Below, piece by piece: positions 33,484-46,882 of a stretch of 64,000 nt of DNA. A model generated the notes under the pieces. It searched no databases. It worked only from the letters and a program-made list of their open reading frames with translations, and had not been told where the DNA came from. A program made the position numbers and the translations under genes. The DNA comes from Massilia solisilvae (GTDB lineage Bacteria; Pseudomonadota; Gammaproteobacteria; Burkholderiales; Burkholderiaceae_D): positions 124,001 to 188,000 of the forward strand of contig NZ_JANUGV010000007.1 of NCBI RefSeq assembly GCF_024753215.1, written 5' to 3'. Each line of letters begins with the position of its first letter. The stretch's first letter is position 1.

Positions 33484-34656
33484 GTGTACATTGTGCAAGA
33501 CCTTACCGGGTCGCGGGGCCATTTCGAGCCTGCACTCGAGGCGGCCTATCAGGCCGATCTCGCGACGCAGAAAATTGTCGCATTCCACCGCACGGCCTTG
33601 CTGTGCGCGGTGCTGTACAGCTGCTTCGCGGTGCTCGACCTGATGGCGGTGCCCAGCAATGTGGCCGCGGCCTGGGCGATCAGGGCCGTGGTGCTGTGCG
33701 TGACCGCCGCCACCTCGCTTGCCAGCCGATTGTCGCGCGAGACCTTCGTCCGCCGCTACGCCATGCTCACCTGCCTGACCTACCTGATGTGGGGGCTGGG
33801 GATCGAGGCGATCATCATGTTCACCCGCCCCGACGACCCGGGCTGGAGCACCTACTATGCGGGCTTGCTGCTGGTTTCGATGGCGCTGTACGGCGCTACC
33901 TACCTGCGCGTGCTGCACGCCAGCCTGACCGGGCTGGCGCTGACCCTGAGCTACCTGGCGCTGGCGCTGGGCTACCAGCACATGGGCGAGCGCGGCGACT
34001 GGGTCATCCTGGTGCAGAACTGCTTCTTCCTGATCGGCGCCAACTTCATCGGCCTGTTCTCGCTGCACATGCGCGAACACTTCTCGCGCCAGGCCTTCCT
34101 GCTCAAGAATGCGCTCAAGCGCGACCTCGAGCTCGAAGAGGAGGCCAAGCGCCAGAGCGAGCACCTGTCCGAGCATGACGCACTGACCGGCCTGCCCAAC
34201 CGTGTGCGCTTCCTGCGGCGCCTTGGCGAACTGCTGTCCCAGCGCGACGACGGATCGACGGTGGCGGTGCTGTTCCTCGACCTGGATGACTTCAAGCCAG
34301 TCAACGACCGCCACGGCCACGCCGCCGGCGACTACGTGCTGCGCCGCGTGGCCGACCGTGTGCGCGGCGCCATCCGCGCGTCAGACCTGGCCGGCAGGCT
34401 GGGGGGCGACGAATTCGTGGTGGCGCTGCCGCTGGCCGTCGGGCAGGCCGAACTGACCATCGAGCGCCTGAGCGCTGCCCTGCGCGCCGCCATCGGCGAG
34501 CCGATCGCTTTCGGCGGCGAGGTGGTGCGCGTGACCGCGAGCGTTGGCGCGGCGCGGTGTCCCGATCATGGCCAGACGGCCGAGGAACTGCTGCACGCCG
34601 CCGACCAGTGCATGTATCGCTCCAAGCGGCGCAAGGAGACTGCACTGGCGGCGTAG
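33484..34656 (+). CDS. Membrane-bound diguanylate cyclase (GGDEF)
   Basis: 390 residues. Six or so transmembrane helices fill residues 35-210, followed by a short linker helix and a GGDEF domain (DALTGLPNRVRFLRRL; FLDLDDFKPVND; RLGGDEFVVAL). The active GGDEF motif is intact. An RxxD inhibitory site (RASD) lies five residues before it, so product inhibition by c-di-GMP is expected. GTG at 33484 is the first start in frame. The TAG stop lies inside a family B repeat. Confidence 0.9.
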   Translation: MYIVQDLTGSRGHFEPALEAAYQADLATQKIVAFHRTALLCAVLYSCFAVLDLMAVPSNVAAAWAIRAVVLCVTAATSLASRLSRETFVRRYAMLTCLTYLMWGLGIEAIIMFTRPDDPGWSTYYAGLLLVSMALYGATYLRVLHASLTGLALTLSYLALALGYQHMGERGDWVILVQNCFFLIGANFIGLFSLHMREHFSRQAFLLKNALKRDLELEEEAKRQSEHLSEHDALTGLPNRVRFLRRLGELLSQRDDGSTVAVLFLDLDDFKPVNDRHGHAAGDYVLRRVADRVRGAIRASDLAGRLGGDEFVVALPLAVGQAELTIERLSAALRAAIGEPIAFGGEVVRVTASVGAARCPDHGQTAEELLHAADQCMYRSKRRKETALAA

Positions 34657-34745
34657 GGTGGGCGGGTTTCCCGCCCACGCGTTCAGCGACGATCGGCGTA
34701 GCTGCGGCGTTGAACGCGTGGGCAGGAAAACCTGCCCACCCTACC
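34653..34745. repeat. REP/BIME-like repeat, family B copy between convergent genes
   Basis: The left unit GTAGGGTGGGCGGG-TTT-CCCGCCCACGCGTTCAG starts at 34653 and the right unit TTGAACGCGTGGGCAGG-AAAA-CCTGCCCACCCTACC follows. The TAG at 34654-34656 ends the GGDEF gene, and the complementary CTA at 34741-34743 ends the rhomboid gene. Both stop codons are therefore part of the repeat. Confidence 0.9.
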
Positions 34746-35730
34746 GGCGCTGGTCCGGCACGTACAGCGAGCGCGCCAGCAGCAAGCCGGCCAGATAGCC
34801 ACCGGCCAGCCCGCCGATGTGGGCCGCGTTGTCGGTATGCGGGTACACCAGGCCGGCGGCGATGTTAAACATCAAAAAGCCGCCCAGCGAACCGCGCAGG
34901 TCCCGGACAATGGTGGCCGGCACGCCGCTGTCAGGCCGCTGCATGAAGGCGAGCAGCCCGCCGATGATGCCGAAGATCGCGCCCGATGCGCCAACGCTGT
35001 TCACGTGCGGATTCCACAGCACGCTGGCCAGGCTGCCGCACACGCCGGCGATCATGTACAGCGCCAGGAAGCGCGCGCTGCCGAACATGCGCTCGACCAG
35101 GCGCCCAACCTGCCACAGCGCGAACATGTTGAACAGGATGTGCAGCAGCCCCCCGTGCACGAACATCGACGTCACCAGCCGCCACGGTTGGCCGTGCAGC
35201 GTCAGCGGACCGGCGTTCGAGCCCCAGCGCACCAGCTTCATCGACTCGGCAGCCGCCGAACCGTCGCCGGAAGAACTGAGCGACATCAGCACGAACACCA
35301 GGATGTTCATCGCCAGCAGCGCCCAGATGACGGGCGTGCGCGGGGTCCAGTGGTCGATCCGGTCGTGGAAGGTCTCGCGGTCCGACTGCGCGATTCTGAA
35401 TTCCTCGGTCTGGCGGACCGGCAGCAGCTCGAAGATGCGCCACGCGTTCACTTCGTCCGGCACATCGAAGGCCACGGTCTGGTCGCGCTCGACGCCGACG
35501 ACCTCGAATTCCACTTCCTTGCCGTCGCTGCGCACGTTGACGATATCGACCATCTTCAGCCGGTGTTCCTCCGGTTCGGCGGCGCGCAGGTTGCGGTAGC
35601 GCGTGCCGCGCAGGACCAGGAAATCGGGCTCGATCGTGACCGAGCCCTTGCCGTTGAACTGGTAGGGATTGCCCGCGCGACGCCTGCCGCCGGCGCGAAA
35701 GCGGACCTCGAAGGTTTCGCCGGCCGTCAT
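34741..35730 (-). CDS. Rhomboid family intramembrane serine protease
   Basis: 329 residues. The N-terminal 120 residues form a soluble beta-rich domain of PH-like appearance (KMVDIVNVRSDGKEVEFEVV). The rhomboid core of about six helices follows. The catalytic dyad is Ser249 (GASGAIFG) and His304 (HIGGLAGG), with the His/Asn of HILFNMFALW in helix 2. It cleaves membrane proteins within the bilayer; substrates unknown. The start is 13 bases after the adenosyltransferase stop, suggesting one transcript. Confidence 0.92.
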   Translation of the reverse strand: MTAGETFEVRFRAGGRRRAGNPYQFNGKGSVTIEPDFLVLRGTRYRNLRAAEPEEHRLKMVDIVNVRSDGKEVEFEVVGVERDQTVAFDVPDEVNAWRIFELLPVRQTEEFRIAQSDRETFHDRIDHWTPRTPVIWALLAMNILVFVLMSLSSSGDGSAAAESMKLVRWGSNAGPLTLHGQPWRLVTSMFVHGGLLHILFNMFALWQVGRLVERMFGSARFLALYMIAGVCGSLASVLWNPHVNSVGASGAIFGIIGGLLAFMQRPDSGVPATIVRDLRGSLGGFLMFNIAAGLVYPHTDNAAHIGGLAGGYLAGLLLARSLYVPDQRR

Positions 35731-46137: not shown

Positions 46138-46220
46138 TGGACGCGTGGGCGGGAAACCCGCCCACCCTACGAAAGCGGGCAGGCGGTAGGGTGGGCGGCT
46201 GTGCCGCCCACGCGTTCAAC
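46138..46220. repeat. REP/BIME-like repeat, family B copy between proC and the yqj-like operon
   Basis: GGACGCGTGGGCGGG-AAA-CCCGCCCACCCTAC is followed by GGTAGGGTGGGCGGC-TGT-GCCGCCCACGCGTTCAAC. The TCA at 46216-46218 is the stop codon (TGA, minus strand) of the next gene, so this repeat also contributes coding sequence. Confidence 0.88.
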
Positions 46221-46518
46221 CAGCGTTGGGCCGTGTCAGCAGCGGCAGCACCTTCTGCGCCACCTTCCATAACGACAGGCCGGCAGCGGCCAGCTTCAGC
46301 ACGCGCTTGGGCCGCGTGACCGCAAGGCCAAGCGCCACGCCCGCCACCGCGAGCACCACGGGCTTGTTCGCGGCGACAAAGCCGCCAACGCCCGCGCCGC
46401 CGAAAGGCGTCTTGAGCGCCGCGACTTCCTCGGCCAGGAACCCGCGCTGCAGCGCGCACAGTTCAATCAGTTCGGCGCGTCGCTGCGCCAGCAAGACAGC
46501 TTCTTTACTCACTTGCAT
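46216..46518 (-). CDS. YqjK-like small protein
   Basis: 100 residues. An N-terminal helix (SKEAVLLAQRRAELIELCALQR) is followed by an amphipathic or membrane-seeking C-terminus (KPVVLAVAGVALGLAVTRPK; LKLAAAGLSLWKVAQKVLP). Size, position and sequence order fit the third gene of a yqjD-yqjE-yqjK set. ATG at 46518 is chosen; GTG 46512 is an alternative. It overlaps the upstream holin-like gene by 14 bases. Its stop lies in a repeat element. Confidence 0.65.
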   Translation of the reverse strand: MQVSKEAVLLAQRRAELIELCALQRGFLAEEVAALKTPFGGAGVGGFVAANKPVVLAVAGVALGLAVTRPKRVLKLAAAGLSLWKVAQKVLPLLTRPNAG

Positions 46519-46882
46519 GCCCCGCGCCGGTGATGAAATCGAGATCGTTGCGCAGCTCCTTGCGCGTCGCTTCGAAAAGCGCCGGCTTTGCCGCAAAGCT
46601 GGCCTGCACGCGGTTCAGGATCACGAAACCGGCCAGTGCAAGCAGCACCGCCATGGCGCCCACGGCGGCCAGGCGGTAGCTGTCCCAGAACAGCAGCACG
46701 ACGAACAGTGCGGCGAACAGCACCGCGCCGGCGCCCAGCAGCACCGCCATCAGCGTCCAGGCCAGGTAGCCGGACAGGCGACGGGCCTCCTCCTGCACCT
46801 CCACGGCCGCCAGTTCCAGCCGTGTGTGCAGCATGGCGACCAGCGTCGCCCCGATGCGGCCTACCGCCGCCCCGAGTGCCAT
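46505..46882 (-). CDS. Phage holin family protein, YqjE-like
   Basis: 125 residues with two hydrophobic hairpin helices (SGYLAWTLMAVLLGAGAVLF; AAVGAMAVLLALAGFVIL) between charged ends. It is called phage holin family (Pfam holin superfamily 6) in databases, but it is a chromosomal inner-membrane protein, not part of a prophage. It starts one base after the DUF883 gene stop. Confidence 0.8.
   Translation of the reverse strand: MALGAAVGRIGATLVAMLHTRLELAAVEVQEEARRLSGYLAWTLMAVLLGAGAVLFAALFVVLLFWDSYRLAAVGAMAVLLALAGFVILNRVQASFAAKPALFEATRKELRNDLDFITGAGHASE

Follow-up and report, generated by a model that had tools for sequence, protein, structure and literature searches.

Stop codons supplied to flanking genes by a GTAG-tagged repeat in Massilia solisilvae

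If a gene stops on a codon that belongs to a dispersed repeat, was its product shortened when the repeat arrived, or did the repeat take over the place of a stop that was already there? The question is raised by a stretch of 64,000 nucleotides of the Massilia solisilvae genome (the window; contig NZ_JANUGV010000007.1, positions 124,001 to 188,000), in which three genes end inside units of a repeat here termed family B (Table 1).

Three genes that end in family B units

A sequence-only reading of the window had held that a GGDEF-domain gene and the rhomboid gene convergent with it are each closed by the TAG of one unit of a repeat pair, that a YqjK-like gene stops on a TGA within another copy at 46.2 kb, and that insertion of these repeats may have trimmed or fixed C-termini. 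The coordinates of the ORFs and repeats bear out all three placements. The GGDEF stop (TAG, 34654-34656) is part of the left unit's GTAG (34653-34656), and the rhomboid stop (TAG, 34741-34743, minus strand) is part of the GTAG of the right unit (34741-34744); the YqjK-like ORF is closed by the TGA at the outer end of its unit, opposite the GTAG end. A family B unit can offer a stop to genes coming from both sides: its GTAG end gives TAG, and its opposite end TGA. Pfam support is strong for the GGDEF (3.4e-41) and rhomboid (3.9e-37) proteins, and weak for YqjK (E 3.8e-5, 24.5 bits against a curated cut-off of 28.1).

Table 1. Family B units at two places in the window, and the genes that end on them
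Feature	Coordinates	Strand	Remarks
GGDEF-domain gene	33484..34656	+	390 codons; last sense codon GCG; stop TAG from repeat
Left family B unit	34653..34685	+	Order GTAG, stem, loop, stem, GCGTTCA; begins GTAGGGTGGGCGGG
Right family B unit, inverted	34711..34744	-	Partner of left unit in head-to-head pair, GTAG ends outward
Rhomboid gene	34741..35730	-	Last sense codon CGG; stop TAG from repeat; start as chosen by the in-house gene caller
Family B unit, tail-to-tail partner	46138..46171	-	GTAG ends of the two units face each other
Family B unit with outer end TGAACGCG	46186..46218	+	Outer end, in minus-strand sense, is the source of TGA 46216-46218, the YqjK-like stop
YqjK-like gene	46216..46596	-	Pfam match below curated cut-off

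What kind of repeat is this? A strict pattern, GTAGGGTGGGC(3-20)GCCCACGC, has 381 matches in the 5.2-Mb genome and none when reversed as a control; across 61 genomes of the genus the matches range from 0 to 591 per genome, with at least one in 54. Among 174 core units in 1.46 Mb the tag is GTAG in 154 and GCAG in 11, and GCGTTCA follows GCCCAC in 99. The 105 sites sampled comprise 46 head-to-head pairs, 14 tail-to-tail pairs, 43 single units and two groups, and they lie between convergent (50), unidirectional (51) or divergent (2) genes or inside genes (2). A short palindrome with GTAG unpaired at one end, high copy number in intergenic positions, and a predominance of head-to-head pairs behind genes (101 of the 105 sites being convergent or unidirectional) are the characters of the GTAG REP superfamily, and family B is a GTAG-tagged REP that occurs mostly in pairs (BIMEs). 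One head-to-head pair, at G000:C1:489543-489626 (G000 being the window genome), lies within a called gene some 645 codons long (G000:C1, 488281-490218, minus strand) whose reading frame continues across it.

The 106-base stretch of the 34.6-kb pair is predicted to form a single long RNA hairpin (-81.6 kcal/mol, z -8.9 against shuffles) with both GTAG ends paired near its foot and one stop on each strand. There are no terminator-like sites in 34400-35000 and no T-run follows the hairpins; an intrinsic terminator of the standard type is thereby ruled out.

A further mark of the superfamily is mobilisation by a RAYT that has REPs of its own kind on its flanks. The genome has one gene that we could find for a Y1 transposase (Y1_Tnp; L031, G000:C27:96531-99854, 1396-2160), scoring 68.2 bits against the NCBIfam model REP_Tyr_transpos, below its cut-off of 80. 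By eye, the printed sequence shows GGGGACA motifs at its flanks, not one GTAG unit on each side; in the 3.3-kb stretch family B is represented on the 3' side only, by one regular and one degenerate unit just behind the stop.

Gene ends at family B units and at a control family

Are the three cases part of something more general? Gene ends were surveyed in contig 1 (1-1.2 Mb) and contig 28 (1-260 kb) of the window genome, i.e. 1.46 of 5.21 Mb (28%), where an in-house script, for which this genome was also the training set, called 1282 genes; 198 end on TAG. Units were located by regular expressions (which miss degenerate copies), and those with GTAG or GCAG were taken as tagged (169 units). We counted genes that read toward a tagged end and have their stop either not more than 60 bases before the tag or beyond it, 101 gene ends in all.

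In 82 of these the stop precedes the unit, by 1-15 bases in 60 cases. The remaining 19 genes enter the unit from its tagged side, and 17 of them stop on its TAG; of the other two, one ends 65 bases in, at a GCAG unit, and the second contains the whole unit far from its end. The pile-up on TAG goes beyond chance: no single gap of 1-22 bases before GTAG has more than nine gene ends, against the 17 on TAG, and the TAG frame is used in 17 of 19 where one-third would be expected (p 6.2e-7), although the 19 run-in cases are few. Two stretches of the related genome G014 gave 11 of 12 (p 4.7e-5), several of the loci being common to both genomes. When units were defined by their stem only, with any tag, the TAG frame was found in 16 of 21 and another frame in five (p 7.3e-5); three of these five have neither GTAG nor GCAG, resemble chance palindromes in coding sequence, and drop out under the tagged definition. 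At the opposite end, 52 of 56 genes stop before the unit, three stop on TGA, and one has a unit inside it. The repeat, then, supplies stop codons to flanking genes: in 28% of the genome there are 17 gene ends on its TAG and three on its TGA, and a single repeat family provides 17 of the 198 TAG stops called.

As a control we used the CGTC family, which has no stop at its tagged edge and is represented by 114 units in the same stretches of the window genome. Only three of 61 genes reading toward the tagged edge of a CGTC unit run in, each of them past the 28-base unit and ending at three different positions; this run-in rate is lower than the 19/101 of family B (Fisher p 0.016), and the 61 gene ends show no pile-up at one position. 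Some CGTC units of G014 and of another relative, G038, do sit far within called genes (4 of 54 gene ends for the tagged edge and 5 of 9 for the opposite one), where they are perhaps arrays in doubtful ORFs.

The closing of both convergent genes by one pair, as at 34.6 kb, occurs at two of 26 convergent head-to-head pairs, with about 0.6 expected from the single rate, and by itself is not significant. The second such pair, also giving TAG to both neighbours, is at G000:C1:1072400-1072481.

Protein length and the origin of the repeat-borne stop

It is tempting to read such stops as truncations. For the rhomboid gene, matches were obtained in 41 of 61 genomes, and 30 loci (including that of the window) were cut out; 25 homologues counted as REP-free, in that no REP was found in the interval from 40 bases upstream of the stop to 160 downstream. 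Of these, 24 end 3-6 residues (median 5) past a conserved LP/VP and one (G008) ends 14 past; the window protein ends four past. So does that of G014, where a family B pair is at the same place, while the G017 protein ends five past, on a TAG that is its own, family B units lying farther downstream. The G038 protein, with a CGTC pair, ends two past, and that of G011 (L061) enters a CGTC unit and ends 13 past on a TGA at the repeat's end. Six repeat-free GGDEF homologues end seven (four proteins) or 11 (two proteins; in one of them, G054, the stop is inside the matched region) residues past a conserved KR, and the window protein eight past.

More generally, we compared reciprocal-best pairs in which only one genome has the repeat stop, expressing the change as the length of the repeat-bearing protein minus that of the other. 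The 11 loci, drawn from both genomes (some partners carry another REP nearby), gave the following: G000_C28 gene 223, +3 against G014 and +2 against G038; YqjK, -1 and -1; rhomboid, +2 against G038; G014_C28 gene 111 and G014_C27 gene 158, 0; G014_C27 gene 232, -2; G014_C28 genes 178, 210 and 275, 0, 0 and +1; G014_C28 gene 207 (ending on TGA), +3; and GGDEF, +1 or -3. The range is thus -2 to +3 residues at ten loci, and -3 to +3 when GGDEF is included; G000_C1 genes 190 and 202 were left out of the count, having degenerate units in both genomes. As background, 47 of 190 G014-G038 pairs without units differ in length (one of 191, with a long tail, was dropped). Four conserved proteins that end on the repeat's TAG also extend to the last position of curated family models, or almost to it (HscB, 175 of 176; TrpB, 384 of 385; RluC, 315 of 317; Maf, TIGR00172, 185 of 185), and the open frame of RluC has 349 codons in its own genome, in G014, in G038 and in several other relatives, which fits an unchanged end but is no proof of it.

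Comparison of the GGDEF and rhomboid ends with their homologues does not support trimming: proteins encoded without the repeat finish only a few residues from the same place, mostly on a different stop, an outcome close to the one that the sequence-only reading had named as refuting it. C-terminal trimming as a general rule is rejected by the rhomboid, GGDEF and reciprocal-best comparisons alike, and what stands of the proposal that insertion trimmed or fixed C-termini is the fixing, and this only in so far as the stop is now part of the repeat. On these sequence comparisons the repeats take the place of the stop and, as a rule, do not shorten the proteins, which are nearly constant in length.

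How might the replacement come about? In two close pairs the last residue is kept while TGA or TAA gives way to the repeat's TAG, which indicates that the repeat took over the stop's place; in one of them the other genome has a CGTC pair in that junction. At the joint of G000_C1 gene 138 and G014_C27 gene 158 the empty site reads AAGTAA and the filled one AAGTAG followed by the unit, with GTA in common; in the other exact pair the empty CCTTTGA corresponds to CCTGTAG, with no GT in common. YqjK seems to illustrate a different route. In G014 this repeat is preceded, at a distance of 25 bases, by a native TAA, and in G000 the segment separating the repeat from the body of the gene is about 31 bp shorter (by hand count). 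The simplest reading is a small deletion in G000 that would have exposed the pre-existing TGA of the repeat, and not a repeat insertion that cut the gene, though an insertion in G014 could also account for the size difference.

The explanation that we favour, with a probability of roughly two in three, is that family B settles behind stops and is then filtered for an in-frame TAG. New copies would land in, or substitute for, the sequence immediately downstream of a stop codon, and the majority would come to rest 1-22 bases after that codon. A copy that reached the last codons or the stop itself would be tolerated only with the TAG of its GTAG in frame, because in the other two frames the gene would read on into the hairpin. 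The outcome would be the pile-up of genes ending on the repeat's TAG with protein length nearly unchanged, and the frame bias would have been made by selection and not by the insertion machinery. By a minority route, that of YqjK, the native stop would be lost through a small deletion or mutation and a nearby unit would catch the frame. Against this reading, landing in coding sequence as the main route should have left some C-termini shorter, and few are; the lengths agree equally well with a plain exchange of one stop for another. One feature is not accounted for by selection: the base 5' of GTAG is A in only four of 169 units (C in 94), against 20% A behind stops in general, and this shortage of A is a sequence preference. 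With A so rare, the tag would seldom directly follow TAA or TGA, and the window-genome sample contains no gene that ends immediately before it.

That so common a repeat should meet gene ends by chance can hardly be credited: TAG is a normal stop in this genome, as the 198 among 1282 genes attest, but 17 ends at one exact position, nearly all run-ins being in one frame, and the scattered positions of the three control overlaps lead us to reject it. Another possibility is targeted insertion, with a transposase choosing GTAG-like sites and G-preceded stops (GTAA, GTGA, GTAG) joining the repeat precisely. The GTA shared at AAGTAA/AAGTAG and the two pairs with an identical C-terminus agree with this; the pair without GT at its joint, the C that usually precedes GTAG, and the 82 gene ends lying before the unit, against 17 on TAG, make it an unlikely account.

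Alternatively, units might settle downstream as fail-safe stops, their TAG or TGA coming into use only after the native stop was lost. This is just what YqjK suggests, and gene 223 of G000_C28, which ends on the repeat's TAG three residues later than its G014 orthologue, could be another instance. Length changes, however, go both ways near zero with no consistent extension, and on its own such a history predicts read-through in the other frames too, which is rare (2/19), so that as the general explanation we consider it rather improbable. It may also be asked whether a stop at the foot of a hairpin is itself selected, stalling terminating ribosomes and so lowering or protecting the mRNA. The predicted fold of the pair, with GTAG paired at the stem foot, would suit such a role, and earlier work reported in the accessible part of PMC12306157 counts in its favour; with 77 of 101 gene ends either 1-15 bases before a unit or on its TAG, some effect on ribosomes is possible. 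The variation in copy number across the genus and the frequency of orthologues without the repeat speak against it, and we think selection of this kind quite unlikely to be the cause.

Exchange of repeat families and relation to known systems

The two families also replace each other. In the non-divergent junctions among 188 neighbouring gene pairs common to G014 and G038, there were 20 with family B only in G014; in G038, eight of these have CGTC and 12 have no REP, whereas CGTC is present in G038 at none of 131 junctions that are REP-free in G014 (Fisher p 2.3e-8). The difference persists for junctions of at least 60 bases (8/20 vs 0/37, p 7.6e-5) and of at least 100 bases (8/20 vs 0/20, p 0.003). 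By the pattern used, family B is a single unit in three of the eight exchanged junctions and CGTC in two. Between G000 and G014, both genomes have a REP at 38 junctions, and at six of these the families are opposite. At conserved junctions, then, one REP family stands in for the other at a rate above that expected by chance, which would follow equally from a hotspot for any REP, from REP-by-REP replacement, or from the site requiring a hairpin. It is a tentative and somewhat doubtful idea that junctions are held as REP-bearing sites while the family swaps, as if either hairpin were needed; if it were true, REPs behind genes would act by shape and not by family, and the supplied stop would be part of a swappable gene-end cassette. 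We found no report of such exchange in the literature searched, and it is absent from the accessible parts of PMC3733652 and PMC2680597. Exchange at the same junction makes the function of the site testable by comparison of strains.

For annotation, the lesson is that repeat-borne stops are real, and the tempting view of them as truncations needs correction, since they leave proteins nearly unchanged; the frame bias provides a measure of the insertions tolerated at a gene end.

Family B has close counterparts among described repeats. The GTAG REPs and BIMEs (Di Nocera et al., 2013; PMC3733652, accessible part) are likewise short stem-loops that leave a GTAG unpaired at one end, form predominantly head-to-head pairs in most families, and lie behind genes, between convergent or unidirectional neighbours. 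In REPs of RAYT-bearing genomes (Nunvar et al., 2010; PMC2817692, accessible part), some of the Haemophilus entries (GTAGGGTGGGCTTcAGCCCACC, for example) have GTAGGGTGGGC and GCCCAC in common with family B; the Y1 transposase of the present genome differs from the arrangement there in being flanked by GGGGACA and not by a GTAG unit on each side, and GGGGACA fits the GGGGWSAS motif of TIR-flanked RAYT relatives (PMC3733652, accessible part). QMITE2 in enhC of Coxiella burnetii (PMC5896051, accessible part) resembles our cases in that an indel decides between a stop before the repeat and a run into it; it adds about 33 residues, whereas family B stops the gene at the repeat's edge. The available text of Di Nocera et al. 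(2013) contains no frame test, no length comparison of such stops and no TGA at the opposite end, but it does state that the ends of GTAG REPs often give TAG to flanking ORFs. The stops supplied by family B are non-random and were correctly recognised, and are of a kind already known; to that one-line statement we add numbers (the 17 of 198 sampled TAG stops) and a test of trimming.
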